The position numbers and the translations under genes were made by a program. From NCBI RefSeq assembly GCF_021129215.1, contig NZ_JAJOLP010000001.1, forward strand, positions 1,364,001-1,428,000: a stretch of DNA of 64,000 nucleotides, in the 5' to 3' direction. Source of the stretch: Agromyces sp. S2-1-8 (GTDB lineage Bacteria > Actinomycetota > Actinomycetes > Actinomycetales > Microbacteriaceae). The notes under the pieces were generated by a model, which was not told where the DNA came from, ran no database searches, and was given only the letters and a program-made list of their open reading frames with translations. Shown here in pieces: positions 5,909 through 21,646 of the stretch; position 1 is the stretch's first letter; each line of letters opens with the position of its first letter.

Positions 5909-5915
5909 TCCGCCA

Positions 5916-5960
5916 CCGTAACAATACCCCAGGGGTATTGTCAAAATACACCCGGGGTAT
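5916..5960 (-). promoter_or_regulatory. Promoter with two CstR/CsoR-type operators before the CoADR-rhodanese gene
   Basis: Site 1 at 5922-5940, CAATACCCCAGGGGTATTG, is a perfect palindrome with 9-base arms around one central base. Site 2 at 5946-5960, ATACACCCGGGGTAT, is the same element with one mismatch. On the minus strand a perfect -35 TTGACA (5944-5939) places site 1 exactly in the 17-base spacer before a weak -10-like TTACGG (5921-5916), so repressor binding would block polymerase. G/C-tract palindromes flanked by AT are the known operator type of CsoR/CstR repressors, and such a gene lies next door. Confidence 0.8.
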
Positions 5961-5996
5961 TGAATCCGACCGATGGCGACGGGGCGCCGGGAGGCG

Positions 5997-6287
5997 TCAG
6001 GCGAGGGAGAGGAACAGCTTCTCCAGCTCGTCGAGCGTGAGCGGCTGATCGGGCGCGTCGCCGGAGGGCTCGGTCGATTCCTGCTCGGCGACGCAGTCCT
6101 TCATCGCGCTGGAGATGATGGCGAAGCCTGCGCGATCGAGCGCGGACGAGACGGCCGAGAGCTGAGTCACGACCGTTCGGCAGTCCGCGCCCGATTCCAC
6201 GGCTTCGATCACGGCATTCAGCTGGCCGCGAGCGCGCTTCAGGCGGTTCGCGATACGGCGCTGGGGGTCGAGCGACGCGTTGGTCAT
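5997..6287 (-). CDS. CsoR/CstR-family repressor, probable persulfide sensor
   Basis: A 96-residue, all-helical DUF156 protein matching CsoR throughout: RLKRARGQLNAVIEAVESG, Cys36, TQLSAVSSALDRAG, Cys65. Copper-sensing CsoR needs Cys-His-Cys (36-61-65 in the Mycobacterium numbering). Here residue 61 is Ala, so the copper site is incomplete while both cysteines remain. That is the CstR pattern, where the two Cys sense per/polysulfide. The neighbours (CoADR-rhodanese, rhodanese, thioredoxin, YgaP-type membrane protein) fit the same role. The acidic C-tail is slightly longer than usual. Copper sensing is unlikely but not tested. Confidence 0.88.
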   Translation of the reverse strand: MTNASLDPQRRIANRLKRARGQLNAVIEAVESGADCRTVVTQLSAVSSALDRAGFAIISSAMKDCVAEQESTEPSGDAPDQPLTLDELEKLFLSLA

Positions 6288-6393
6288 GGTGTGCCTCCGG
6301 TGTCTCGGTCCGACGTGTGATCCCGCGGGGTCGGACCCAGCCCTGCGGGGGCGGTGGATGGCCTCGTCGCCGAGGGGGTCGGTCGCCCGGTGC

Positions 6394-6753
6394 TCATGGG
6401 ACGACCGGGAGACCGGTGGCGGAGGCGGCCTGCTGCATCGATCCGGCGTCGGTGACGACGAGGCCCGTGTCTTCGAGGAGTTGTGCCGCCTGGCTCGAGC
6501 GATTGCCCGACTGGCAGTAGACGACGTAGTCGGAGTCGTCGTCGAGCTGGGGGAGCTGATCGGCGAGCTCGCCGGACGTCAGGTCGAGATTGACGGCACC
6601 TTTCAGGTGTCCGGCGGCGTACTCGTCGGCGGTGCGTACGTCGATGACGACCGTATCGGCTGTCAGCTCGACGGGATCGGCCGTGGCGCATCCCGTGAGG
6701 GCGAGGGCGGCCGCACCGGTGGCGGCGAGAAGAGCGGTTCGCAGTCCGTGCAT
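6394..6753 (-). CDS. Rhodanese-domain lipoprotein
   Basis: A 119-residue exported single-domain rhodanese. The signal peptide ends in the lipobox LTGC (Cys about 22), so it should be lipid-anchored outside the membrane. The domain runs VIDVRTADEYAAGHLKGAVN to the active-site loop CQSGNRS, a good CxxGxRS thiosulfate/persulfide sulfurtransferase loop. It shares a 44-base divergent promoter region and operator with the thioredoxin gene, and on its own strand precedes the CstR-type gene, so the repressor may be co-transcribed. Surface location suggests handling of extracellular sulfane sulfur (inference). Confidence 0.88.
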   Translation of the reverse strand: MHGLRTALLAATGAAALALTGCATADPVELTADTVVIDVRTADEYAAGHLKGAVNLDLTSGELADQLPQLDDDSDYVVYCQSGNRSSQAAQLLEDTGLVVTDAGSMQQAASATGLPVVP

Positions 6754-6762
6754 GGCCTCAAC

Positions 6763-6777
6763 AATACCCCATGGGTA
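6763..6777. promoter_or_regulatory. CstR-type operator between divergent rhodanese and thioredoxin genes
   Basis: ATACCCCATGGGTAT is the same 15-base element as in front of the CoADR-rhodanese gene, with one mismatch from a perfect palindrome. It sits centrally in the 44-base gap between the two start codons. A possible -10 (TATCCT, 6786-6791) lies only 6 bases before the thioredoxin ATG, so that transcript may be leaderless. Confidence 0.75.
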
Positions 6778-8950: not shown

Positions 8951-9766
8951 TCAGGGCATCAGCGCCGACATCACCGACGTCCACGCTGAGACCGCCCCGA
9001 GCGGCAGCGCAGCGAGGATCGCAAGCAGACCGGCGATCGCCCACCCGCGACGACGGGTTCGCGCACCGTCGACGTTGCGGCGCAGCTGATCGAACGCCGC
9101 GACATCGGCAGGTTCGAGCGAGGGCGCTTCGTGCCAGGTCGAAGGCTGCGCCGCGGCATCCGCAACTCGATCGACGGCGTCGGGCGGCACGGCCGCCGGC
9201 CGCGAACCCAGCCACTTGATCAGGCTGCGTTCGCGCAGCACGATCACGGTCGCCGGCCGTTCGCGCACGGTGATGCGCCGGGCTCCCACGATCACGATCA
9301 CCGGCGTGACCTCGATGAGGGCGTGCGCCGCCGCCGAGAGCAGCTGCGATGCGCGCTTCGCCTCGAAGCTGGCGTTGCGCAGGTGGTCCGTGGGCTGCCC
9401 ACTGACGAGCAGGCGCTTCGAGCCGAGCCAGATGTCGTGGCCCTCGTGGTGCTTCGTGTTGATGGTGAAGACGCCGGGCGGGCCGACGACGACGTGGTCG
9501 ATGTCGCTCGATCCACGGCCGACGGGCACCGAGTGGAACACCCGCCAGTCGGGCCCGAGCGAGTCGAGCCGGCGCGCGACCTCGAGTTCGCCGAGCGCAC
9601 CGAGGTACCAGGACTCCGACTCGGCGCTCAGCGGTGTGCGCCCGAACAGCCGTGCGACTGGCGAGCGCGGCGGTGCGGTCGCCTGCGTGCGCAGGCATTC
9701 GGCGATCACGGATGCCGCGGGCTGACGCGCGGCGAGCGTGAATGTGTCGGGCCGGGTCGTGGTCAC
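8951..9766 (-). CDS. NERD-domain protein with C-terminal membrane anchor
   Basis: A 271-residue protein with a nuclease-related (NERD) domain at about 50-165: GALGELEVARRLDSL, then SDIDHVVVGPPGVFTINTK, then GQPTDHLRNASFEAKRASQLL. The D-(x)n-E/N-x-K core resembles PD-(D/E)xK nucleases, with NTK in place of ExK, which is common in NERD. A hydrophobic helix near the C-terminus (GWAIAGLLAILAALPLGAVS) suggests membrane anchoring with the domain in the cytoplasm. NERD proteins are thought to process DNA, but few have been tested. Confidence 0.82.
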   Translation of the reverse strand: MTTTRPDTFTLAARQPAASVIAECLRTQATAPPRSPVARLFGRTPLSAESESWYLGALGELEVARRLDSLGPDWRVFHSVPVGRGSSDIDHVVVGPPGVFTINTKHHEGHDIWLGSKRLLVSGQPTDHLRNASFEAKRASQLLSAAAHALIEVTPVIVIVGARRITVRERPATVIVLRERSLIKWLGSRPAAVPPDAVDRVADAAAQPSTWHEAPSLEPADVAAFDQLRRNVDGARTRRRGWAIAGLLAILAALPLGAVSAWTSVMSALMP

Positions 9767-9901
9767 GGTGCGTCCGCCTCCTTGCCGTCGTCGTCGCCCC
9801 GATGCGGCCGACCGGTCTGACGGCCGCTTGGACTCCGACGCTATTGGTCGGCGGCTTCGTGGCGTGACCCCCGTTCACGTGTGAATTCGATCGGGCAAGT
9901 T

Positions 9902-9917
9902 GGCGCGATCTCGCGCC
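9902..9917. promoter_or_regulatory. Inverted repeat GGCGCGA-TC-TCGCGCC upstream of the DMT exporter
   Basis: Perfect 7-base arms around two bases, 54 bases before the GTG start of the exporter gene, in a 205-base gap between divergent genes. Could be an operator or a hairpin; no regulator is adjacent. Confidence 0.35.
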
Positions 9918-9971
9918 ACTTCGGCCGTCGAGCACAGCCCCGATGTCGGACGTCACGGGCAGAATGTTCAA

Positions 9972-10907
9972 GTGACTCGTCGCGGACTGCTCCTCTTCAT
10001 CGCGCTCGGAGTCGCGTGGGGCATCCCATATCTGTTCATCAAGGTCGCCGTGTCGGAGCTCGACCCGGGCATGGTGGTGCTCGCCCGCTCGGGGCTCGCG
10101 GCGATCCTTCTGCTGCCGCTCGCGCTGTTCCGGCATGAGGTCGGGCCGGTGCTGCGCCGGTGGAAGCCGATGCTCGCGTACACGCTCGTCGAGATCGTGC
10201 TGCCGTGGTACTTCTTGAGCTCGGCCGAGCAGACGCTGCCGAGCTCGACCGCCGGGCTGCTGCTCGCCGCGGTGCCGCTCGCGGGCGTCGCCATCGCCTT
10301 CCTCATGGGGCGGCCGGCGCGCCTCTCGGGCACGAACTGGATCGGCATCGCGCTCGGCATGCTCGGCGTCGCCGCGCTGGTCGGCCTGGATGTCGCGGGG
10401 TCGGACCTGTTCGCCGTCGCTCAGATGGCCGTGGTCGTCGTCGGCTACGCGCTCGGCCCGGCGATCCTCGCGCGCTGGATGCCCGACCTGCCCGGCATCG
10501 GCATCGTGGCCGTCTCGCTCGCGGGCGCCGCCATCGCGTACGTGCCGTTCGTACTGCTCACCGGCGGCGTGCCGACGGCCTGGCCGTCGCCGCCCGTCAT
10601 CGTCTCGGTGATCGTGCTCGCCGTGATCTGCAGCGCGCTCGCCTTCTTGCTCATGGTCGGCCTCATCGCCGAGATCGGCCCGGTCAAGGCGACCACCATC
10701 ACGTACGTGAACCCGGCCGTCGCGATCATCGCCGGCGTCGTCGTGCTGGGGGAGCGGGTCACCGTGTGGACGGTCGTGGGGTTCGTGCTCGTGCTCGCCG
10801 GGTCGTATCTCGTGACGAAGAAGCACCGGCCGGCGTTGAACGCGGTTGTGGCCGCTGACGAGCGTTCAGAGGCGTCGATCGACTCCGCATCGGAGCGTCG
10901 CGCCTAG
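9972..10907 (+). CDS. EamA/DMT-family transporter
   Basis: A 311-residue membrane protein with about 10 hydrophobic helices in two EamA halves, beginning RGLLLFIALGVAWGIPYLFIK and repeating in the second half with TITYVNPAVAIIAGVVVLGE, a typical EamA end-of-domain pattern. The family exports amino acids, metabolites or drugs. GTG at 9972 is preferred over an in-frame TTG 72 bases earlier, because the family normally starts a few residues before the first helix. Its end overlaps the convergent gene by 4 bases. Substrate unknown. Confidence 0.85.
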   Translation: MTRRGLLLFIALGVAWGIPYLFIKVAVSELDPGMVVLARSGLAAILLLPLALFRHEVGPVLRRWKPMLAYTLVEIVLPWYFLSSAEQTLPSSTAGLLLAAVPLAGVAIAFLMGRPARLSGTNWIGIALGMLGVAALVGLDVAGSDLFAVAQMAVVVVGYALGPAILARWMPDLPGIGIVAVSLAGAAIAYVPFVLLTGGVPTAWPSPPVIVSVIVLAVICSALAFLLMVGLIAEIGPVKATTITYVNPAVAIIAGVVVLGERVTVWTVVGFVLVLAGSYLVTKKHRPALNAVVAADERSEASIDSASERRA

Positions 10908-11644
10908 CTGTCGCGGGAACGAGTACGCGGACGAAGTCGATCAGCCGGCGGGTCGCTCGGCTTGAAAGTCTGGCCGTTCGCGTTGGCCGGGCTCCAATAC
11001 AGAGTGTGCGAGGTCGGGTACGGCGACCGCCGCGATCGGGCGGTGAACGCATCGACGAGTTCATGGTTCGCGACGAATGTCGTATCCAACGGTTGCGCAT
11101 CGGCGAGTTGTTCGCCGAGCCTGGAGGTGACTTCCGCGATCAACTCATCGACTCGATCCACTATTGCGTCGACGAGTGCTGCGAACTGCGCGAGCACGGG
11201 CGGGGGGAGCGGTTGCGAGATCGTGGTGGCGTGCGCGATTCGCGTGCCGTCGGAGAGTTCCACGACGTGCGGGTACGTCGTGATGAGTGCGCTCTGCGAA
11301 TGCGCGATCACCATGTTCCGGTACTCGCAGATGCGCTCGTGGGTGGAAGCGAACTCAGCGGGAACGTCAAGATACGAATTGAGGGACGCACGAACGTTCG
11401 ACGGGAAGAACGCTCGGCAATACGACATCACTGCGGTGTCGACCAGGAAGCCTGCGATCCCCTCCTCATCGTCAGCGTCGAGATGCTCGAGTGCGAGCCC
11501 GATTGCCCGCGATGCAGGCGCCAGATCGGCGCCGGCGAAATGGTTGAGTTCGATGAACAGCCTGGTGTCCACGCTGTCGGGGAGAGCGAGCAGCCGCACC
11601 GAGCCATCCTCGCTCGCCTGATCGACGTGCTCATCGAATGACAT
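10904..11644 (-). CDS. Hypothetical protein with possible HEPN-like R-N-x4-H motif
   Basis: A 246-residue soluble protein, not recognised with confidence. The start at 11644 has a strong GGGAGG site. The first half is helical and acidic; around residues 106-116 it reads CEYRNMVIAHS. R109 and H115 thus form the Rx4-6H arrangement typical of HEPN RNases and HEPN-like nucleic-acid-binding proteins. The C-terminal third is less ordered and ends Arg/Ser/Pro-rich. It diverges from the FAD oxidase and lies about 1.5 kb from the helicase-nuclease island. The HEPN assignment rests on the motif and helical context only. Confidence 0.5.
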   Translation of the reverse strand: MSFDEHVDQASEDGSVRLLALPDSVDTRLFIELNHFAGADLAPASRAIGLALEHLDADDEEGIAGFLVDTAVMSYCRAFFPSNVRASLNSYLDVPAEFASTHERICEYRNMVIAHSQSALITTYPHVVELSDGTRIAHATTISQPLPPPVLAQFAALVDAIVDRVDELIAEVTSRLGEQLADAQPLDTTFVANHELVDAFTARSRRSPYPTSHTLYWSPANANGQTFKPSDPPADRLRPRTRSRDS

Positions 11645-11771
11645 GTTGCCTCCCTGCGGCCCACCGTAGCCCGCGATCGGCGGCCCGACCAGCCCTTCGT
11701 CGTGGGGCTCGCTCTTGACGCCGGCGCCCGTCCGCGGCATCCTCGGGCGCGGAGCGAACGGGGGAGATCGC

Positions 11772-13070
11772 ATGAAGACGCTCGAACCAGGTGACGACGG
11801 CTACGACGACGCGCGGCGCGTATGGAACGCGATGATCGACCGCAGACCCCGGTACATCGTCGCCTGCTCGAGCGCCGAGGACGTCGCCGAGGCGATCCGC
11901 TTCGCGCGCGCGAACGACCTCGAGATCGGCGTGCGCTGCGGCGGGCACAGCATCGTCGGGCACGCCGTGCCCGACGGCGGGCTGATGATCGACCTGCGGC
12001 CGATGGGGTCGGTCGAGGTGGATGCCGCGGCGCGACGAGCCCGCGTGCAAGGTGGCGCGCTGCTCGGTGCACTCGACCGTGCGGCCCAGGCGCACAGCCT
12101 CGCGACGACGGCGGGCAACGTCTCGCACACCGGCATCGGCGGGCTCGCGCTCGGCGGCGGCATGGGCTGGCTCGCCCGACAACACGGACTCACGTGCGAC
12201 AACGTCGTCTCGTTCGAGGTCGTGACCGCCGAGGGCGAGATCCTGCGCGTCGACCGAGACCACCACCCCGAGCTGTTCTGGGCGCTGCGCGGTGGCGGCG
12301 GCAACTTCGGCGTCGTGACCGAGTTCGAGCTGGTGCTGCACCCCGAGCCAGGCGACGCGCTCTCGGTCGAGTACCTCTACCCCGTGGCATCCGGCGCCGC
12401 GGCGATGCGCCGCTGGCGCGACGAGAGTACCCGAGCCGACCGGCGCGCGACCTACAACGCGACCATCTCCGACGGAACGCTGTCGCTCGGATTCGTCTGG
12501 GTCGGCGACCCGGTCGACGGCGAGGCCGCGGCAGCCGCGCTCGCGACGAGTCTCGCCGGGGTCGACGCCGGCTTCGAGCGGGTGATCGTGCCGATGACCT
12601 ACCTCGAGCTCCAGACCCGCGAAGACGACGTCGAGGCCCACGAGTGGCGCCGGTACTGGAAGGGCCACTACTTCAGCGAGCTGAGCGACGAGGTGATCGA
12701 CGCGGTGCTCGCCCGTGATGGCGACGATCTGCCGAATGTGAGCCTGCAGGCGTACGGCGGAGCGATTGCCGATGTGGCTCCGGGGGAGACGGCGTTCTCG
12801 CGGCGGGACACGGCGTTCGAGTTCGTGTGCGCGTCGAAGTGGGTTGACCCGGAGGATGACGAGGCGCGGGTTGCAGGCGCGCGCAAGTACGCCGCTGCGA
12901 TGGAGTCGTTCGCGAGTGGCGCGTATGTCAACGCACTCAGCGACGAGGGTTCAGCGGGCGTGCGACGTGCGTACGCGCCCGAGCACCTCGCGCGGTTGAC
13001 AGCCGTGAAGGATCGCTACGATCCGGCGAACGCGTTCCACCTGAATCAGAACATCATGCCCTCGATATGA
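11772..13070 (+). CDS. BBE-type FAD-linked oxidoreductase
   Basis: A 432-residue enzyme with an N-terminal FAD_binding_4 domain: CGGHSIVGHAV (the His used for 8-alpha-histidyl FAD attachment) and GGMGWLARQHGLTCDNV (the Cys of the second, 6-S-cysteinyl link). Its C-terminus RYDPANAFHLNQNI matches the BBE motif. Such enzymes oxidise sugars, alkaloids or polyketides with O2. No signal peptide is seen. ATG 11772 follows a GGGGGAG site. It diverges from the HEPN-like gene. Substrate unknown. Confidence 0.88.
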   Translation: MKTLEPGDDGYDDARRVWNAMIDRRPRYIVACSSAEDVAEAIRFARANDLEIGVRCGGHSIVGHAVPDGGLMIDLRPMGSVEVDAAARRARVQGGALLGALDRAAQAHSLATTAGNVSHTGIGGLALGGGMGWLARQHGLTCDNVVSFEVVTAEGEILRVDRDHHPELFWALRGGGGNFGVVTEFELVLHPEPGDALSVEYLYPVASGAAAMRRWRDESTRADRRATYNATISDGTLSLGFVWVGDPVDGEAAAAALATSLAGVDAGFERVIVPMTYLELQTREDDVEAHEWRRYWKGHYFSELSDEVIDAVLARDGDDLPNVSLQAYGGAIADVAPGETAFSRRDTAFEFVCASKWVDPEDDEARVAGARKYAAAMESFASGAYVNALSDEGSAGVRRAYAPEHLARLTAVKDRYDPANAFHLNQNIMPSI

Positions 13071-13149
13071 AGTGGCGCCGTGGGCACTCGCTCCGAGACA
13101 GCAGCGGGCGGTCCGAGCTGGTGACTAGGTCTCGGTGTACGCTCCGACC

Positions 13150-13470
13150 GTGGCTGATCAACGGGTGATGCGCGAGTTGAGGGCGTTCGTGGACGAGCGA
13201 GATTGGGCACAGTTTCACTCGCCCGAGAACCTCGCCAAGAGCGTCAGCATCGAGGCTGCCGAGCTCCTCGAATGCTTCCAATGGGCGCCGGATCCCCCGA
13301 GCGAGCGTGTCACCGAAGAACTCGCCGACGTGCTGACATACTGCCTGTTGCTTGCCGACAAGCTCGGCGTCGATGCCGACCAGATCGTGCTCGACAAGCT
13401 CGAGCAGACGCGGCGCAAGTACCCGGCCGAACGGTCCCGTGGGCGGAGCACGAAGTATGACCAGCTTTAG
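13150..13470 (+). CDS. MazG-like nucleotide pyrophosphohydrolase
   Basis: A 106-residue all-alpha NTP-PPase of the MazG-like/RS21-C6 (dCTPase) type. The metal-binding pattern is visible: SIEAAELLECFQW (ExxE) followed by EELADVLTYCLLLADKLG (ExxD). It would hydrolyse (d)NTPs to (d)NMP and PPi. GTG 13150 is taken; an ATG at 13168 is possible. Its last 14 bases overlap the start of the GIY-YIG/DUF2075 gene, so the two are translationally coupled. That coupling suggests a joint role in nucleic-acid conflict rather than housekeeping. Confidence 0.85.
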   Translation: MADQRVMRELRAFVDERDWAQFHSPENLAKSVSIEAAELLECFQWAPDPPSERVTEELADVLTYCLLLADKLGVDADQIVLDKLEQTRRKYPAERSRGRSTKYDQL

Positions 13471-15178
13471 GATCGAGCACTTCCCGTTCACTCGGCCCGC
13501 GATCAAATCGTGGGCCGAGCCCGACGGCAGGCACGCGAACTGGCCGGTCGTGTACACGCTCAGCAGCAACCGCGAGATCTACGTCGGCGAGACCCTGAAC
13601 GCCATCGGTCGGCTTCGCCAGCACCTCGATTCCGACGCGAAGCAGCACCTGGAGGCCGCGCGCATCGTCATCGACGAGACCTTCAACAAGTCGGTGTGCC
13701 TCGACCTCGAGTCGTACCTGATCCGGCTCTTCGCGGGGGACGGCAAGTACACGGTCGTCAACCGCAACGAGGGCATCACCGATGCCGACTACTACGACCG
13801 GGTTCGCTATCGAGCAACGTTTGACGAGATCTTCGAGAAGCTTCGTGCCGCGGGAATGTTCACTCGCGATATCCCCGATATCGAGAACAACGACCTGTTC
13901 AAGCTGTCGCCGTTCAAAGCGCTGAATCAGGAGCAGGCGGTCGCGATGGAGGGCATTCTTGAAGGGCTCTTCGACGACCTTGAAGCGGGGCGCGAGGGCA
14001 CGATCGTCGTGCAGGGCGACCCTGGCACGGGTAAGACCATCGTGGGCATCTTCCTCATGAAGCTGCTCCGCGACATCCAGCACGCCGATCTCGCCGACCG
14101 CACCGAGAACGACTCGCTCTTCTCCGACTTCTTCACCGCCGGCTACGTCGAGAAGCTGAAGGACTTCAAGATCGGCATCGTCATCCCGCAGCAGTCGCTG
14201 CGCAAGTCGGTGCAGAAGGTCTTCGCGAAGACGCCGCAGCTCGAGAAGGGCATGGTGCTGACGCCGTTTCAGGTCGGTGAGAGCGATGAGCAGTTCGATC
14301 TTCTCGTCGTCGACGAGGCGCATCGGCTTAACCATCGCGCGAACCAGCCATCGGGTAGGCTCAACAAGAAGTTCCGCGAGATCAATGAGAAGCTGTTCGG
14401 CGCCGACGACCTGACAAAGACGCAGCTCGACTGGATTCGCGCGAAGAGCCGCCATCAGGTGTTGCTGCTCGATCAGGCGCAGAGCGTACGCCCGGCCGAC
14501 CTGCCCAGTGGCATCGTCGGCCCGCTCGTGTCGCAGGCGAAGGAACAGGGCCGCTTCTACCCGCTCGCCTCGCAGATGCGCGTGGCTGGTGGCGCCGATT
14601 ACATCGATTTCGTCCGGCGGATGCTCCGCGCCGAGGTCACCGAACCACGCGAGTTCACCGGTTACGACTTGCGCATGTTCGACGACCTCGGCGAGATGCA
14701 CGCGGCGATCCGTGCGCGGGACGCGGAGCACGGCCTCGCGCGCCTGGCGGCTGGCTTCGCCTGGGAATGGAAGAGCAAGAAGGATGCCACGGCCTTCGAT
14801 ATCTCGACCGATGGCGTCGAGCTCCGGTGGAACAGCACCCAGACCGACTGGGTCAACTCGCCGGGCGCACTCGAAGAGGTCGGGTCGATCCACACCTTGC
14901 AGGGCTACGACCTGAACTACGCCGGCGTGATCATCGGCCCCGACCTGCGCCTTGACCCGCTTCGCGGCCGAGTCTTCGCCGATCTCGACTCCTACTTCGA
15001 CAAGAAGGGCAAGGAGGCGAACCCCAAGCTCGGGCTCACGTATGACGCCGACGACGTACTGCAGTTCATCGTCAACATCTACGCGGTGCTGCTCACGCGG
15101 GGAATGAAGGGCACCTATGTGTACGTGTGTGATCCGGCGCTCAGGGGTTACGTGCGCGGGTTGCTGCCTTCAGAGTGA
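13457..15178 (+). CDS. GIY-YIG nuclease - DUF2075 ATPase fusion
   Basis: A 573-residue protein with two parts. Residues about 28-110 form a GIY-YIG endonuclease-like domain (VVYTL at 31, IYVGET at 41, Arg52, Glu near 85). Residues about 150-573 form a DUF2075 P-loop ATPase with Walker A GDPGTGKT (187-194), Walker B LLVVDEAHR (282-290), the SQMRVAGGADY motif and a late HTLQGYDLNYAGVIIGPD motif typical of DUF2075. The latter is SF1-helicase-like and is often found in defence islands. It starts inside the MazG gene. The ATG at 13457 fits the beginning of the nuclease domain. Confidence 0.88.
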   Translation: MTSFRIEHFPFTRPAIKSWAEPDGRHANWPVVYTLSSNREIYVGETLNAIGRLRQHLDSDAKQHLEAARIVIDETFNKSVCLDLESYLIRLFAGDGKYTVVNRNEGITDADYYDRVRYRATFDEIFEKLRAAGMFTRDIPDIENNDLFKLSPFKALNQEQAVAMEGILEGLFDDLEAGREGTIVVQGDPGTGKTIVGIFLMKLLRDIQHADLADRTENDSLFSDFFTAGYVEKLKDFKIGIVIPQQSLRKSVQKVFAKTPQLEKGMVLTPFQVGESDEQFDLLVVDEAHRLNHRANQPSGRLNKKFREINEKLFGADDLTKTQLDWIRAKSRHQVLLLDQAQSVRPADLPSGIVGPLVSQAKEQGRFYPLASQMRVAGGADYIDFVRRMLRAEVTEPREFTGYDLRMFDDLGEMHAAIRARDAEHGLARLAAGFAWEWKSKKDATAFDISTDGVELRWNSTQTDWVNSPGALEEVGSIHTLQGYDLNYAGVIIGPDLRLDPLRGRVFADLDSYFDKKGKEANPKLGLTYDADDVLQFIVNIYAVLLTRGMKGTYVYVCDPALRGYVRGLLPSE

Positions 15179-15265
15179 GCGTGCAGAACACGTGCTTGTT
15201 GAGGGCTGATCGGTCGGAGGCCGCCGGTAGGCTGCACCAGAGGTGGGCAAGAACGGGAGCCGAGT

Positions 15266-15664
15266 GTGAAGAAGCAGATCAACGTGGTTGGTGCAGTTGT
15301 GATGCGCGAAGGTACCGTGCTGTCCGCCCAGCGCAGTCCCCAAATGTCGCTCGCAGGAATGTGGGAATTCCCCGGCGGCAAGATCGAGGCCGGCGAGACT
15401 CCTCAGCAGGCACTGGTTCGCGAAATGGGGGAAGAATTGCTGTGCGTGGTTGAGATTGGCGACCACGTGGAGACGACAACTCATGAATACGATTTCGGAA
15501 TTGTCACGCTCACGACTTTCTACGCGAGACTTGTCAGCGGTGAACCACAACTCACCGAGCACTCCGACATCCGATGGATCCCAGCCGCCGAGCTACTCAG
15601 TGTGGCCTGGGCCCCGGCTGATGTTCCTGCTGTCGAGCGCATCATGCGGGACCACGCGGCGTAG
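15266..15664 (+). CDS. Nudix (deoxy)nucleoside triphosphate pyrophosphohydrolase, MutT-like
   Basis: A 132-residue Nudix hydrolase. The box reads GGKIEAGETPQQALVREMGEELL, fitting GX5EX7REUXEEXGU apart from the final residues. The N-terminus VVGAVVMREGTVLSAQRS and the segment THEYDFGIVTLTTFY follow the MutT/8-oxo-dGTPase subfamily. GTG start with a GGGAG site. The next gene starts on the base after its stop codon, so the pair is coupled. I recall this subfamily sitting next to DUF3427 helicases in other Gram-positive genomes. Confidence 0.88.
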   Translation: MKKQINVVGAVVMREGTVLSAQRSPQMSLAGMWEFPGGKIEAGETPQQALVREMGEELLCVVEIGDHVETTTHEYDFGIVTLTTFYARLVSGEPQLTEHSDIRWIPAAELLSVAWAPADVPAVERIMRDHAA

Positions 15665-18580
15665 GTGGTCGTGGACTCGCTCTCGTCGCGTATCAGGCTC
15701 GACAACGCGTTCGGATTTCTTGATCGTTCTCAGACGACGGAGCAGCTCTTTCATCCGTTGCTGGTCTCAAACGCCGACGGCAACACGATGGTCAAGGCGA
15801 TTACTGCGGAACTTCGACGTAGCGACTCGTTCACATTTTCAGTTGCGTTCGTGGAGTCAAGTGCGCTGTCACTCCTGAAACAGGCGCTGCTCGACTTCCA
15901 CGGTCGAGGTCGCGTCATCACCTCCACCTATCTGGGATTTAATTCACCGGCCTCGTTTCGTGAACTGCTCAACCTGCCGAACACCGACGTTTACGTACTT
16001 GAGCCTCCACAAGGCGGCTTTCACGCGAAGGGCTACCTGTTCAAGCAACGGGGGAGCACCACCGCGATCATCGGCAGCTCGAACCTGACTTCGTCTGCGC
16101 TGATCAAGAATCAAGAGTGGAATCTGAGATTTTCGGCGCTGCCAGACGGCGACATCGTTGAGCAGCTCGATCGTGCGGTCGAAGCACAGATGGCGAGCGC
16201 TGTACCACTCACAGATGAGTGGATCGACGATTATGAACGCTCGTATGTACCTCCGCCGCGCGCGCAGGCGGTGAGTGCCAGCGGCCGGATCGTGGGGTCG
16301 GGCCTGATCGCTCCCAACTCCATGCAGGCAGAAGCGTTGGCTGAGATCCGCAAGGTGCGCGAGGCGGGAGAGACGCGAGCGGTCGTAGTTTCAGCAACGG
16401 GCACGGGCAAGACGATCTTGGCGGCGCTGGACGTTCAGACCTGCAATCCAGAGCGGATGCTTTTCGTTGTTCATCGCGAGCAGATCCTTGATCGCGCAAT
16501 CGAAGAATTCCAGCGTGTTCTGAACGCGCCGCTCTCAGATTTTGGAAAGTTCGTCGGCGGGCGCCGTGAACTCGATCGCCGCTATGTGTTTGCAACGATC
16601 CAGTCCTTGGCTAGGGCGGAAACTCTGAGCGGCATTGACCCTGAATGGTTCGATTACATCCTGGTCGATGAAGTTCACCGAGCGGGATCAGAGTCACATC
16701 TACGGCTCATCAATCACTTCAAGCCCAGGTTCCTCTTAGGGGTGACGGCTACACCCGAGCGGACAGACAGCTTCAACGTCTTCGAACTGTTCGATTTCAA
16801 CGTTCCCTACGAGATTCGACTCCAGCGCGCACTTGAAGAGGACATGTTGGCGCCGTTTCACTATTTCGGAGTCACTGACTTCGAGCTCGAAGGGGAGGTC
16901 ATCGACGACACAAGCCAACTGAGGCTGCTCGTCGCGCCAGAGCGAGCCGATCACATTGTGGACGCGCTCGCGACGTACGGCCATGCTGGGACTGCGGTGT
17001 GTGGGCTAATGTTCTGCAGCCGCAAGGACGAAGCGGAAGAGCTATCGAATCTCCTCAACGCGCGGCAGGTTCACGGGCGACCGCTACGTACAAGAACCTT
17101 GACGGGAGACGACTCGATCGCTGCTCGTGAAGCTGTCGTCGAGCAACTTGAGCGTGGCGAACTTGATTACATCCTCACCGTTGACGTTTTCAACGAAGGC
17201 ATCGATATCCCGACAGTCAATCAGGTGGTGATGCTTCGCCAGACCCAGTCGAGCATCATCTTCACTCAGCAACTCGGTCGAGGGCTCCGGAAGGCTTCGG
17301 GCAAGGACCACCTTGTCGTGATCGACTTCATCGGCAACTACACGAATAACTATCTGATCCCGATCGCCTTGTTCGGGAATACCTCGCTGAACAAGGATTC
17401 GATCCGCCGAAGCATCATTGAGTCGCAGGAGTCTGGATCGATCTCGGGACTCTCAAGTGTGAATTTCGACCAGGTCTCGAAGGAGCGCATCTTCGCATCG
17501 CTTGCGAGCACGAAGCTCGACAGCATGCAGGCGCTGAAGCGATCTATTGCTGAGCTAGCGAGCCGTTTGGGTCAGCCGCCGCGTCTGATTGATTTTGCAC
17601 GGTTCGATACCGCCGATCCGGTGGTGATCGCGAACGCGAAAGACAATTACTGGCATCTGCTGAGCACCGTTCGGCAGGAAGACCGCCTGGCCACGGACGA
17701 GCAGAACAAGGCGCTGAAGTACCTCTCGAGAGAGCTGTTGAACGGAAAGCGCCCGCATGAGCTTGTCGTACTATCCGCCTTGCTCGATGCGGACAGTTCG
17801 CTCGAAAGCCATCAGATAGTTGATGTGCTGTCCGCGAGTGACTGCACAGCTGACGCTGCGACCCTCGAGTCGCTTAGTCGCATCCTTACCCTGGGCTTCT
17901 TCACGGATCCCCAACGTGCGCAGTATGGGGTGCCGTTGGTTGAGGCACGCGGGAATGGTCTGGCATTGACGGCCCACATGCAGAGTTTGCTCACGGATTC
18001 GCTCTTCAAATCACACGTGCGCGACGTTGTCGAAACTGGGCTGTTCCTCGCGCGACATCGTCATGGCTGGGTGAGCGGACTAGAGATCGGCGGGCGATAC
18101 TCGCGCAAGGATGTCTGCCGTTTGCTGAACTGGTCCAAGAACGAGGAAGGAACCATCAACGGATACAAGGTCGACCGCGAGTCGGAGACCTGCCCAATTT
18201 TTGTTACGTACCACAAGCACGAGACCGTTTCCGCGAGTACCGCCTATGGCGACGAGTTTCTCAACGAGTCGGCGATGCACTGGTTTACGCGGACGAGGCG
18301 GACCCTTGCGAGTCCCGAGGTGCGCTCAATCATCGAACATCAAGTTGCGTTGCACCTCTTCGCAAAGAAGGACGATGCCGAAGGGCGGGACTTCTACTAT
18401 CTCGGCCGTGTGCGTGCGTCAGATCCCAAGCAAACAACAATGCCCAGTGACAATGGTTCCCTGCTCAACGTGGTCACAATGACGCTCGACATCGAGTCCC
18501 CGATCGAAACCCACCTCTACGACTATTTCCTCTCGAGCGCAGCCGACATCGTGGTCGAGTACGAAGGACCCCGGCCATAG
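15665..18580 (+). CDS. PLD nuclease - SF2 helicase - DUF3427 protein
   Basis: A 971-residue multidomain protein. Residues about 30-190 hold a phospholipase-D-type nuclease domain with one HKD-like motif (H120-x-K122, GSSN 137-140). Residues about 215-600 form an SF2 DEAD/DEAH-type helicase core: Walker A SATGTGKT (243-250), DEVH (335-338), GVTATPER and QLGRGLRKA. The C-terminal 350 residues match DUF3427. GTG start directly after the Nudix stop. Base composition is clearly more AT-rich than its neighbours, with many A/T-ending codons, consistent with recent transfer. Likely a restriction-like or phage-defence effector. Confidence 0.87.
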   Translation: MVVDSLSSRIRLDNAFGFLDRSQTTEQLFHPLLVSNADGNTMVKAITAELRRSDSFTFSVAFVESSALSLLKQALLDFHGRGRVITSTYLGFNSPASFRELLNLPNTDVYVLEPPQGGFHAKGYLFKQRGSTTAIIGSSNLTSSALIKNQEWNLRFSALPDGDIVEQLDRAVEAQMASAVPLTDEWIDDYERSYVPPPRAQAVSASGRIVGSGLIAPNSMQAEALAEIRKVREAGETRAVVVSATGTGKTILAALDVQTCNPERMLFVVHREQILDRAIEEFQRVLNAPLSDFGKFVGGRRELDRRYVFATIQSLARAETLSGIDPEWFDYILVDEVHRAGSESHLRLINHFKPRFLLGVTATPERTDSFNVFELFDFNVPYEIRLQRALEEDMLAPFHYFGVTDFELEGEVIDDTSQLRLLVAPERADHIVDALATYGHAGTAVCGLMFCSRKDEAEELSNLLNARQVHGRPLRTRTLTGDDSIAAREAVVEQLERGELDYILTVDVFNEGIDIPTVNQVVMLRQTQSSIIFTQQLGRGLRKASGKDHLVVIDFIGNYTNNYLIPIALFGNTSLNKDSIRRSIIESQESGSISGLSSVNFDQVSKERIFASLASTKLDSMQALKRSIAELASRLGQPPRLIDFARFDTADPVVIANAKDNYWHLLSTVRQEDRLATDEQNKALKYLSRELLNGKRPHELVVLSALLDADSSLESHQIVDVLSASDCTADAATLESLSRILTLGFFTDPQRAQYGVPLVEARGNGLALTAHMQSLLTDSLFKSHVRDVVETGLFLARHRHGWVSGLEIGGRYSRKDVCRLLNWSKNEEGTINGYKVDRESETCPIFVTYHKHETVSASTAYGDEFLNESAMHWFTRTRRTLASPEVRSIIEHQVALHLFAKKDDAEGRDFYYLGRVRASDPKQTTMPSDNGSLLNVVTMTLDIESPIETHLYDYFLSSAADIVVEYEGPRP

Positions 18581-18724
18581 CGCGACCGAGGACCTGTCGC
18601 GACCTCAAATCCGCTCGAGCAGGCGGCCCCAGATGGCTCGTCTGGACTCGTCCCATGGATGTGGGGCGTCGCCGACGCGCGTAGCTAGTGGCGACGGCCG
18701 GACGTCGAATGCAGAGGGCGCGCG

Positions 18725-19597
18725 CTAGCCGAGTCCATGCGTCATGATCGTCTTCGCACGGCCATTCATGCCGAACAGTTCACCGCGTTCGGCGCTGTAC
18801 ACGAAGAGCGCCACTCCGGCGCGTTCAGCGAATTCCGCCGCCCCCGACGCATATCCCGTGCTCGTAAAGAACAGAGGGATTCGCCCATCCGTCGCTGCAA
18901 CGCCCGCCAGTTCGCGGATCGGGGCAACGCCGACATTCGCGCCGAAATGCTTCACTTGAGCGATGTACCGGGCGCTGATCACATCGACACCGCCGTCGCC
19001 TCCAAACGAGGTAACTTCAGCGCCCTTCTCGCCGAGATATCGCATCCACTGAGCGACAAGATGCTCCGCACCGCGTGGTGTCACACCCAACCTCATCGGG
19101 TCGGGGCGATGTGAATCCCTCTGAACACCGTGATCAAGCGGCATTCCTTCTTTCCGGCGGCGCTTCTCGAGAGCGGCTTGCGCTCCCTGGAAGGCCGAAG
19201 CAAGCAGCGCCTTCACCGTCTTCGAGTAGCGAGCTTTCGCGACACGCTCGGCACGGCGATGGGCGATGATTGCGAACACGCTTATCGTCACGAGCACGAG
19301 GGCTCCGATACTGATGAACGCCCTTGCGTCAACGATTGGCTCGAACACCGCGGGGAGGGACACCGGTAGGTACAGGACGACCGCGAACATGACCGCCATG
19401 ACGGCGAGTACAGACACGGCGCCAGCGACCTTGCCGAGCTCTTCGGCGTGACGATCATCATCACTCCTGTGGAGCTTGATTTGCGGTCGGATCTGCGCGC
19501 GAATCACCTGCATCAACACTTCATCCGGAACCCACACGTCGGGATAGCTTCGCCCGATCTTTGCACCCGCATCGTGCGCCGAATTGAGAGATCTCAC
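18725..19597 (-). CDS. Membrane-anchored Mrr-like restriction endonuclease
   Basis: A 290-residue protein. Two hydrophobic helices at about 57-80 (VSVLAVMAVMFAVVLYLPV) and 90-112 (FISIGALVLVTISVFAIIA) are followed by a basic segment and a C-terminal Mrr_cat domain (about 175-285). The PD-(D/E)xK core reads FGGDGGVDVIS then AQVKHF, i.e. D and Q-x-K, as in Mrr-type nucleases of modified DNA. Start is GTG. It converges on the helicase gene across a 144-base gap that holds no visible gene. Placing a nuclease at the membrane suggests action on incoming DNA (inference). Confidence 0.82.
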   Translation of the reverse strand: MRSLNSAHDAGAKIGRSYPDVWVPDEVLMQVIRAQIRPQIKLHRSDDDRHAEELGKVAGAVSVLAVMAVMFAVVLYLPVSLPAVFEPIVDARAFISIGALVLVTISVFAIIAHRRAERVAKARYSKTVKALLASAFQGAQAALEKRRRKEGMPLDHGVQRDSHRPDPMRLGVTPRGAEHLVAQWMRYLGEKGAEVTSFGGDGGVDVISARYIAQVKHFGANVGVAPIRELAGVAATDGRIPLFFTSTGYASGAAEFAERAGVALFVYSAERGELFGMNGRAKTIMTHGLG

Positions 19598-19672: not shown

Positions 19673-20194
19673 CTATTTCACCAAGGCCACCCCCAGAGAC
19701 ACCGCCACCCCGGCCACGACACCCCAGATCACGATCGACACCATCTGCCAGGCGATCACCGCATTCCGGTTCGCGCCGAACGAGACCATCGCCGCGGAGG
19801 TGAACTGGCTGGGGAGCACGAACGGGCCGAGCAGGCTCACGCCGGCGACGCCGTACTTGTCGAAGGCGCGGCGCACTTTCTCGCGGCGCGGCGAAGGGAC
19901 GCCGTCAGTCGCCGAAGCATCAGCAGACGAGGCTGAGCCGGCGCCGGCAGCCGCAGCCTTCCCCGCGACCACCTTCGACCGCACCCCGCTCGCGGCGAAC
20001 ACGAAGCCGAGCATCGACAGCACGTTGCCGATCACGGCGACGCCGATCGCGACCGCGGGCGGCAGCCCGATCAGCACGCCGACGACCGAGCCGAAGTACG
20101 AGTCGATGAACGGAACGGCCGAGATGAGCATCACCCCGAACCACTGGAGGAAGTCGGGGAGCGAGGAGGCGAAGTCCTGGAGGGCGTCGAGCAT
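19673..20194 (-). CDS. Small multidrug export (PF06695-like) membrane protein
   Basis: A 173-residue membrane protein with about four helices: LQWFGVMLISAVPFIDSYFG, VGVLIGLPPAVAIGVAVIGNVL, then after an Ala/Ser-rich basic loop GVAGVSLLGPFVLPSQFTSA and IAWQMVSIVIWGVVAGVAVS. The P-x-I-(E/D)-xx-x-G and LGPF patterns match the putative small multidrug export family, distantly related to DedA. The ATG has a GAAAGG site. Function in this family is poorly tested. Confidence 0.72.
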   Translation of the reverse strand: MLDALQDFASSLPDFLQWFGVMLISAVPFIDSYFGSVVGVLIGLPPAVAIGVAVIGNVLSMLGFVFAASGVRSKVVAGKAAAAGAGSASSADASATDGVPSPRREKVRRAFDKYGVAGVSLLGPFVLPSQFTSAAMVSFGANRNAVIAWQMVSIVIWGVVAGVAVSLGVALVK

Positions 20195-20380
20195 GATCTG
20201 CCTTTCACTAGGTGAGATGTAGGTGTGCGGTCGTTCCCATTGCGGGCAGGGAACGAACCACGGTGATGCATCAAGCCTCCGAGAACCGCGCGATCCGCGT
20301 CAGTGCCGTCGCGTCACCCGTTCCCGTGCGAAAGTGCACGCGCCCGGCGTGACAAATGTCACTGGCATAGGCTCGGGCGC

Positions 20381-21646
20381 ATGCCTGCCGAACCTGCTGC
20401 TCGCAGCGTGCACACGACGTGGTTGTACACGCTCGCGTCGATCGTGTTCTTCTTCGGGTTCTTCGATTTGATCGTTGGGCTGAGCATGCTCGAGACGGTT
20501 GTGAATGTGGGCGGTGGTCTCGATACGGCGCTGCGCGCCTACTCGACCGACCGACTTCTGGCGATCGCAGTGCTCGCGCTGCAGATCATCGCGACTGCCA
20601 CCCAAATCAGGTACTGCTGGTTCCTGCGGGTCGGACGCGGGGGCGGGCTGCCACACCCCGGCTGGACGGCGGCGCTCATCGCACCCGCCGCACTCGTCTG
20701 GCTCGTCGGCCTCGCCGCCCCGGGCGACGCACTCGTCGCCGCCGTGCCGCTGTGGGCCGCGGCATCCCTCATCGCCGCCCTGCTGCCGAAGCCGCAGCGG
20801 CGGCTCACCCTCCTGATCGGCGCCATCCTCACGGCCGCGCACGTCGCGATCTTCACGACGCTGCACGGCACGCCGGCACCCGAAGGTCCGCAGGGCTCGA
20901 ACACCTTCATGATCGGCCTGTTCGCCGTGATCCTCCCGTTCATGCTGCTCACGAGCCTCTGGTGGTGGGAGGTCGTCGTGCAGCTCGACCGCAACCGGCG
21001 CACGGCCGCCGAGCTCGCCGTCACGCAAGAGCGGCTGCGCTTCGCCAGCGACCTGCACGACATCCAAGGGCACCACCTGCAGGTCATCTCGCTGAAGTCC
21101 GAGCTTGCCGAGCGCCTGCTCGAGATCGACCCGGTCGCCGCGCGCGAGCTCGTGCACGAGACGCGCATGATCGCGAAGGAGGCCCTCGAAGAGACCCGCT
21201 CGCTCGTCGCCGGCTACCGCCAGGTCGCCTTCGACGACGAGCTCGAGAACGCCCGCGAGGTGCTCACCGCCTCGGGCGCCGCGTGCGAGCTGCGCCTCAG
21301 TCCACTGCCCGCGGATGCCGCCGCGCAGAGCGCGCTCGCCTCGGTCGTGCGCGAGGCGACGACGAACATCCTGCGTCACAGCGAGGCCGCGACGGTCACC
21401 ATCGCGCTCACCACCGAGGGCGGGCGCTGCGAGCTGCGCATCGTCAACGACGGCATTTCGAACCAGGATGCCTCGGCGCCGGCCACCCCTCGCGCCGCCG
21501 GGTCGCGCGCGCCCGGGTCGGGACTCGCGGGCCTGCGCGAGCGGCTCGCCGCCGTCGGCGGCACGCTCGAGCACGACGAGGATGCCTCGGCCGGCACGTT
21601 CGAGCTCCGAGCCACCGTGCCCGTGCGAGCGGGGGTCGCGGCGTGA
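20381..21646 (+). CDS. DesK/NarL-type sensor histidine kinase
   Basis: A 421-residue kinase. Several membrane helices occupy residues about 12-200, then a HisKA_3 dimerisation/phosphoacceptor helix (RFASDLHDIQGHHLQ, His in DLHD) and a C-terminal HATPase_c domain (VVREATTNILRHSEA as N-box, SGLAGLRERLAAVGG as G2 box). A dispersed repeat encodes residues about 46-58 in the loop after the first helix, so that loop may be dispensable. The ATG at 20381 is chosen to start just before helix 1. The stop overlaps the regulator's GTG by 4 bases. Confidence 0.87.
   Translation: MPAEPAARSVHTTWLYTLASIVFFFGFFDLIVGLSMLETVVNVGGGLDTALRAYSTDRLLAIAVLALQIIATATQIRYCWFLRVGRGGGLPHPGWTAALIAPAALVWLVGLAAPGDALVAAVPLWAAASLIAALLPKPQRRLTLLIGAILTAAHVAIFTTLHGTPAPEGPQGSNTFMIGLFAVILPFMLLTSLWWWEVVVQLDRNRRTAAELAVTQERLRFASDLHDIQGHHLQVISLKSELAERLLEIDPVAARELVHETRMIAKEALEETRSLVAGYRQVAFDDELENAREVLTASGAACELRLSPLPADAAAQSALASVVREATTNILRHSEAATVTIALTTEGGRCELRIVNDGISNQDASAPATPRAAGSRAPGSGLAGLRERLAAVGGTLEHDEDASAGTFELRATVPVRAGVAA
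20516..20552. repeat. Inverted-orientation dispersed repeat inside the histidine-kinase gene
   Basis: The sequence runs GGTCTCGATACGGCGC... to ...CTACTCGACCGACC, the reverse complement form of the repeat. It is read in frame as GLDTALRAYSTDR in the loop between the first two membrane helices. Confidence 0.88.

Follow-up and report, generated by a model that had tools for sequence, protein, structure and literature searches.

Classical restriction systems protect the host by methylating its own DNA, and type IV enzymes need that DNA to stay unmodified. The question of how a cell keeps its DNA unmodified in the presence of circulating modified nucleotides is rarely raised. SauUSI is described as cutting S5mCNGS DNA carrying 5-methylcytosine (5mC) or 5-hydroxymethylcytosine (5hmC); its SRA domain reads the base, and the enzyme translocates and shreds the DNA (PMC7913695). 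A review table lists SauUSI as active on 5mC and 5hmC and inactive on glucosylated 5hmC (PMC3874153). Among nucleotide hydrolases, NudG has reported kcat/Km values of 1,300 for 5-methyl-dCTP and 47 for CTP, in the same units and from two studies (PMC5158307), and a docking model of DCTPP1 names eight pocket residues, of which W47 and W73 contact the 5-methyl group (PMC4491611). Here we describe a locus in a 64,000-nucleotide stretch of the Agromyces sp. S2-1-8 genome (contig NZ_JAJOLP010000001.1, positions 1,364,001 to 1,428,000; hereafter the window), wherein a SauUSI-type enzyme and a GIY-YIG/Schlafen nuclease-helicase are each preceded by the gene for a predicted (5-methyl-)dCTP pyrophosphatase.

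The locus is built around the following four genes.

13135-13470, forward strand: MazG-like hydrolase, predicted DCTPP1-type (5-methyl-)dCTP pyrophosphatase (PF12643, 68 bits)
13457-15178, forward strand: GIY-YIG nuclease (borderline match) fused to a Schlafen group 3 superfamily 1 (SF1) helicase (PF09848, 215 bits)
15266-15664, forward strand: Nudix hydrolase, NudG-like, predicted (5-methyl-)dCTP pyrophosphohydrolase (PF00293, 71 bits)
15665-18580, forward strand: SauUSI-type enzyme with PLD, superfamily 2 (SF2), coupler and SRA-type DUF3427 parts (DUF3427 270 bits, ResIII 121, PLDc_2 32)

A preliminary description of this DNA had named MazG, GIY-YIG/DUF2075, Nudix, PLD/SF2/DUF3427 and Mrr genes, and our Pfam and open reading frame scans recovered all of them, DUF2075 being the Schlafen group 3 family PF09848. 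The layout was also as described: the MazG gene overlaps the GIY gene by 14 nucleotides, and the PLD/SF2/DUF3427 gene starts on the base directly after the Nudix stop codon.

Judged by homology, the PLD/SF2/DUF3427 protein is a SauUSI-type modification-dependent (type IV) restriction enzyme. It matches PDB entry 7clg with 770 bits across residues 17-955, nearly its whole length, and the PADLOC model mREase_IV at 4e-231. We take 7clg, whose molecule name is 'Putative helicase', to be SauUSI of Staphylococcus aureus. These matches reveal a known target class for the second motor that the preliminary description had missed. A single chain holds the PLD nuclease, the SF2 ATPase, the coupler and the SRA-type target domain, which is the SauUSI layout. 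Across 26 such proteins (the window protein included), chosen from retrieved loci and thus not a random sample, the HxK motif and the SRA Asp are present in 26/26, the Trp and the Phe in 24/26 each, and the methyl-contacting Tyr in 16/26. The Glu of HxKx4E is replaced by Lys127 in the window protein, and this position varies among E, D, K, H, R, A, T and Y in the 26. If these SauUSI-type enzymes cut 5mC DNA, C5-cytosine methyltransferases are expected to be avoided in the genomes that encode them. Among 396 genomes of the order, PF00145 was found in 23 of the 93 with SauUSI vs 163 of the 303 without (p = 8e-7; presence thresholds E <= 1e-20 for PF00145 and E <= 1e-50 for SauUSI); kinship is ignored here, as relatedness is in all our genome counts and linkage statistics. 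The Agromyces genome itself has no PF00145 match at E <= 1e-20. Some SauUSI homologues appear decayed, being split over two frames (G101) or carrying one internal stop codon (G191, G209 and G248; G denotes a genome and L a locus of our samples).

The two hydrolases are predicted to act on the same substrate class despite unrelated folds: the MazG protein is DCTPP1-like (dCTP/5-methyl-dCTP), and the Nudix protein is NudG-like (CTP/5-methyl-dCTP). Their nearness to (5-methyl-)dCTP pyrophosphatase families had been overlooked in the preliminary description. Four of the five solved relatives of the MazG-like protein are RS21-C6/dCTP pyrophosphatase 1 entries, and the fifth is called 'pyrophosphatase'. 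The protein has the ExxE...ExxD motif and equivalents of pocket residues W47, W73 and Y102, so that both DCTPP1 Trp are kept; in total, seven of the eight pocket residues are retained, and those seven are invariant in 23/23 aligned sequences. In a larger alignment of 101 rows (the window reference and 100 distinct MazG sequences encoded no more than 2 kb from Schlafen), W24 is conserved in 100, E40 in 100, E43 in 101, W50 in 97, E62 in 101, D65 in 101 and Y69 in 96. The single-protein PADLOC models scanned gave no match to the MazG-like protein. The Nudix protein, for its part, has the Nudix box and an Asp at the NudG D118 position (D119 here), which is Asp in 52/52 rows of an alignment made from the window reference and 51 distinct Nudix sequences encoded within 1.5 kb of SauUSI. 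PADLOC model PDC-S07 matches it at 3e-54, and PDC-S14 matches the GIY part of the neighboring protein at 1e-7.

From this DNA alone it had been proposed that each of two nuclease-motors is coupled to an enzyme that cleans nucleotides, and our neighborhood analysis demonstrates that this double pairing is real and recurrent. MazG lies within 2 kb of Schlafen in 15/15 near loci, 40/40 order loci (a MazG match in pieces, in L146, is counted) and 56/63 loci from a genome-contig sample, the other 7/63 having none within that distance. These three locus samples overlap one another; the 63 are 66 genome-contig loci minus three without a Schlafen profile match, and the 40 derive from 42 GIY-positive genomes, with G431, G400 and the second GIY copy of G212 outside. 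A different DCTPP1-like MazG subtype stands downstream of GIY in L062, L142, L148 and L149. The scan of the second pair covered 80 of the 93 SauUSI loci found in the order, and 45 of these 80 have a Nudix gene no more than 3 kb from SauUSI.

The two pairs also recur side by side. SauUSI occurs within 8 kb of Schlafen in 6/15 near, 7/40 order and 8/63 genome-contig loci, and the pairs stand together in at least eight arrangements. The order MazG-GIY-Nudix-SauUSI is found in the window, L143 and L063; the modules are convergent in L053, L055 and L056 and divergent in L057; MazG-GIY-SauUSI occurs in L129, L134 and L170; and Nudix-SauUSI precedes MazG-GIY or MazG-Schlafen in L178 and L206. Further variants are GIY-MazG-SauUSI-Nudix (L199), GIY/Schlafen-MazG-SauUSI (L198 and L227) and MazG on the opposite strand (L192 and L197). 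A single operon on a mobilizable Lactiplantibacillus plantarum plasmid holds all four genes; within it, Nudix and SauUSI overlap by 14 bases and the next two gaps are 17 bases each; Pfam confirms all four, with GIY-YIG over its cut-off. Downstream of this operon (L333, 11034-14823) lie two proteins without a Pfam match and a DUF2357 protein. Nudix-SauUSI is also present on Hymenobacter and Latilactobacillus plasmids, and the two modules recur together in Actinomycetota and Bacillota. The recurrent unit comprises four genes (MazG, GIY/Schlafen, Nudix and SauUSI), a set that other genomes and a plasmid also carry. No Nudix or MazG domain fused to a motor was seen among the matches listed (120 of 4805 GIY and 120 of 7346 SauUSI homologues).

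The first motor is a Schlafen group 3 helicase, with PF09848 over its cut-off and an SF1 fold. Its GIY-YIG match of 22.3 bits falls just under the Pfam cut-off of 22.6, while the Lactiplantibacillus plasmid homologue scores 27.4. Y33, Y42, R52 and E85, which we take to be the two Tyr, the Arg and the Glu of the GIY-YIG catalytic core, are invariant in 24 GIY sequences. Fold searches with the whole GIY/Schlafen model, in which the GIY domain alone was not queried, placed no GIY-YIG nuclease among the best 50 matches listed of either search, and a sequence search of solved structures with the GIY/Schlafen profile gave four weak P-loop matches. In distant loci, GIY-YIG is replaced by an N-terminal region that looks PD-(D/E)XK-like on inspection by eye (the two such regions scanned had no nuclease match in Pfam), and MazG still stands beside most Schlafen proteins whose N-terminal region is not GIY-YIG. 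Close to its first Schlafen-MazG pair, L207 encodes a second Schlafen group 3 protein (4633-6768), which has a different N-terminal region and is directly followed by a Nudix gene.

We propose, with about even confidence, that this locus is a composite anti-modified-DNA island, wherein SauUSI would shred cytosine-modified DNA and the hydrolases would prevent modified dCTP from entering the host's own DNA. The SRA domain encoded by the Nudix-SauUSI operon would recognize DNA with 5mC or 5hmC, followed by translocation and shredding. A phage may make modified cytosine nucleotides to build its genome, and others may come from shredded DNA or from salvage; once incorporated into the host chromosome, they would turn it into a SauUSI target. 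SauUSI needs mark-free host DNA, and a hydrolase that removes modified dCTP would protect self. The NudG-like Nudix and the DCTPP1-like MazG would do so, in the role of 'metabolic immunity proteins', by hydrolysing 5-modified dCTP to the monophosphate, which would leave host DNA unmodified and shield the cell without weakening the attack on incoming DNA. By analogy, the same self-protection logic may apply to MazG-GIY, with GIY/Schlafen as a second nuclease-motor allied with modified-cytosine-targeting enzymes. The fuller proposal, in which type IV restriction as such is accompanied by metabolic immunity proteins, dedicated pyrophosphatases of two unrelated folds that destroy 5-modified dCTPs, and in which MazG-GIY/Schlafen is a second, previously undescribed module built on this plan and directed at cytosine modifications beyond plain 5mC, is a tentative one that we hold with appreciably less than even confidence. 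Removal of modified dNTPs had been one of the roles suggested for the hydrolases in the preliminary description, and it is the best-supported role; the reading given there is upheld in part, although its five-gene set is not.

Several findings weigh against our proposal. In the MazG-like protein, DCTPP1 H38 aligns with L15, a position that is L, I or V in 96/101 rows. NCBIfam NF007834 (NudG) is the best curated model for the Nudix protein, but its 110.7 bits are under the cut-off of 156, and NudG R72 and R77, presumably substrate-relevant residues, are replaced by His and Gly. The Nudix gene is not obligatory, since 35/80 SauUSI loci have none within 3 kb, and C5-methyltransferases are carried by 9/45 genomes in which SauUSI has a Nudix neighbor vs 9/35 in which it has not (p = 0.6). 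For the GIY module, C5-methyltransferases are present in 17 of 42 GIY genomes vs 169 of 354 without GIY (p = 0.42), and in 16 of the 28 GIY genomes that lack SauUSI; in G013 and G431 (L086), such a gene even adjoins GIY. Because depletion is absent and these neighbors exist, 5mC-based self-protection is not supported for the GIY module. The view of GIY/Schlafen as a general 5mC nuclease is likewise unsupported, C5-methyltransferases being about equally common with and without GIY, and 5mC at large is unlikely to be what this protein attacks. Candidate targets are bulkier modified cytosines, for example the glucosylated one, which SauUSI spares.

Gene neighbors of GIY/Schlafen in other loci bear on its target. 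In L177 and L184, a Nudix gene (product 55 and 57% identical, respectively) adjoins a putative modification-dependent nuclease near MazG-GIY, with no SauUSI match; the adjoining protein (6405-7373 in L177, 6465-7556 in L184) is putatively SRA-like and nuclease-like, with a C-terminal nuclease-like motif seen by eye. The L184 protein has a weak SAD_SRA match (E 0.0026, below cut-off), and the L177 protein has none but is 32% identical to that of L184. On Paenibacillus plasmid pY5S7-1 (L335), the gene directly upstream of GIY/Schlafen (4522-5802) encodes a protein that matches MrcB_N at 200 bits and HNH weakly, and no MazG was found in the stretch around it. The gene company in these three loci points to modified bases. 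Separately, cytosine deaminase and cytosine permease genes lie upstream of a Schlafen group 3 helicase on Fructilactobacillus plasmid pLS1 (L337, 2795-5574).

Other explanations have to be weighed against the composite island. The two modules may be independent defence systems, each with an accessory hydrolase, which were gathered by ordinary defence-island clustering and do not cooperate; we consider this rather doubtful, though a serious contender. It agrees with the GC content of 63% for MazG-GIY vs 57-59% for Nudix-SauUSI, with the other systems that occupy the same slot in sister genomes, and with the 33/40 order loci in which GIY has no SauUSI within 8 kb. Linkage speaks on both sides. 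Both genes occur in 14 genomes of the order sample, and they lie within 10 kb of each other in 7/14, whereas the control family PF02384 is that close to GIY in 1/19 (p = 0.005), which argues against mere clustering, as do the four-gene plasmid operon and the many arrangements in Actinomycetota and Bacillota. PF00145 is near GIY in at least 2/17 (p = 0.04 if 2). Mrr_cat is near GIY in 3/13, not significantly below 7/14 (p = 0.24), and this too counts against our proposal: because the excess fails against Mrr_cat, defence-island clustering remains compatible with the data. The PF02384 and Mrr_cat controls were drawn from 41 GIY genomes, G093 being left out. SauUSI-GIY linkage is therefore commoner than that of PF02384 and perhaps PF00145, but not provably commoner than that of Mrr.

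Two further explanations concern the hydrolases themselves. They might be offensive, depleting (modified) dCTP upon infection and so depriving phage replication of it, in the manner of the dCTP deaminases and dGTPases of known defence systems; this strikes us as improbable. Both families accept dCTP or CTP, and a phage with modified cytosine encodes its own predicted dCTP pyrophosphatase together with dCMP-modifying enzymes (PMC12838424), which would fit such a role. However, we saw neither a sensor nor regulation of a toxin-like kind, both proteins look like small enzymes of the house-cleaning type, and the offensive role fits less well because, as a matter of argument rather than data, less modified dCTP would dilute the mark in phage DNA and blunt SauUSI. 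The least probable of the explanations, in our estimate, is that the hydrolases remove oxidised nucleotides or have a general MutT-like repair function, their place beside nucleases being incidental. In its favor, NudG also acts on 2-OH-dATP (PMC5158307), and the best solved relative of the Nudix protein, 5x1x (146 bits), carries the name MutT, which also counts against our proposal. Lower scores go to 2rrk (CTP pyrophosphohydrolase, 86 bits) and the MutT entry 1mut (51 bits), with MutT2-type and other entries in between; we take 5x1x to be from S. aureus and 2rrk to be E. coli NudG. The MutT curated model gives 83.1 bits, below its cut-off and lower than the NudG score, so that curated-model and structure scores favor NudG over MutT. 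The conserved Asp at the NudG 118 position, the tight operons and the convergence of two unrelated folds on one substrate class likewise argue against a MutT-like role.

The surroundings of the four genes are as follows.

8951-9766, reverse strand: NERD-domain protein
9900-10907, forward strand: EamA protein
10904-11773, reverse strand: possible HEPN-like open reading frame, of patchy occurrence
11715-13070, forward strand: FAD-linked oxidoreductase, left flank of the slot, at the same position and 92% identical in sister genome G013
18725-19597, reverse strand: Mrr_cat nuclease (PF04471, 47 bits), accessory and outside the recurrent set
19673-20194, reverse strand: small hydrophobic protein (named by eye), right flank of the slot
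20303-21646, forward strand: histidine-kinase-like gene (named by eye), beyond the right flank

The flanks have a GC content of about 70%, and Nudix, SauUSI and Mrr range from 57 to 61%. The low-GC block has the look of DNA acquired from elsewhere, probably from several sources. The difference in GC between MazG-GIY and Nudix-SauUSI suggests that the modules arrived separately. The genes are not core genes of all relatives, full-length GIY being present in 14/100 near relatives (the Agromyces genome included) and a close SauUSI in 4/100. Sister genome G013 (L052) has the same left flank and MazG-GIY (GIY 93% and MazG 88% identical), followed by a C5-cytosine methyltransferase, MTaX1 and an OLD-like AAA/TOPRIM gene in place of Nudix-SauUSI-Mrr, and then the same right flank. 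The right-flank pair is shared by G013, G019 and G023 with differing neighbors: G019 (L304) has a GmrSD-like gene (below Pfam cut-offs) there, and in G023 (L058) MazG-GIY is followed by other open reading frames before the flank. The site is probably a defence hotspot that varies between sister genomes. G011 (L055) and G014 (L056) likewise encode NERD homologues, 57 and 56% identical, at no more than 10 kb from the set. A consensus scan of the locus for promoters and terminators gave none, such a scan being uninformative at this GC content.

The preliminary description had counted the Mrr nuclease and the HEPN-like gene into a five-gene set, which was not borne out. The Mrr_cat protein has two hydrophobic stretches near its N terminus (by eye), and only 3/41 GIY genomes have Mrr_cat at a distance of up to 10 kb from GIY. 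The HEPN-like gene has no Pfam match, and its one HEPN-like feature is an R-x5-H string, RNMVIAH, read by eye. It was matched in 10/60 genomes, its own included, several matches being short fragments; six other relatives with a sizeable match are all without GIY, and the one linked match seen (L169) is 33% identical and about 5 kb from GIY. We rejected the five-gene unit, as Mrr_cat is so seldom near GIY and the HEPN-like gene as a rule shows no linkage to it elsewhere.

If the proposal holds, an operon would pair a hydrolase for the marked nucleotide with a nuclease for the mark, and two gene pairs present in several phyla, Nudix-SauUSI and MazG-Schlafen group 3 helicase, would gain a testable role. 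In our literature search, which covered open papers (no subscription papers or preprints) and the top listings for broad queries, no account of MazG with Schlafen group 3/GIY-YIG was found, nor was hydrolase-motor pairing found as a principle. SauUSI is already known, and the island is to be filed under type IV restriction, with the hydrolase-motor pairing as an addition.

PDC-S07 and PDC-S14, which match the Nudix protein and the GIY part, are presumably single-protein phage-defence candidates, and in this they differ from the pairs described here. The window enzyme shares with SauUSI the PLD-SF2-coupler-SRA architecture over its whole length, HxK, the SF2 ATPase motifs and equivalents of Y831, F841, D858 and W868, whereas E126 is replaced by Lys, I842 by Val and M829 by Asn, and its gene immediately follows that of a Nudix protein and has another nuclease-motor gene in the neighborhood. 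The one relevant prior mention that we found is a MutT homologue adjacent to SauUSI homologues of Streptococcus, in the legend to Fig. 9 of PMC7641849; the mention is confined to that legend, the passages seen give no role or substrate, and the words 'MazG' and 'Nudix' are absent from the main text. With E. coli NudG (Orf135; CTP/5-methyl-dCTP pyrophosphohydrolase), the Nudix protein shares the Nudix box, the E33 and D118 positions and its best, albeit sub-threshold, curated model, but it has a THEYDFG stretch where NudG has R72 and R77, and it is encoded in an operon with a restriction enzyme. The MazG-like protein, finally, shares with DCTPP1/RS21-C6 the MazG-like domain (PF12643 here) and W47, E63, E66, W73, E95, D98 and Y102, and it differs in lacking H38 and in being encoded in an operon with a nuclease-helicase.

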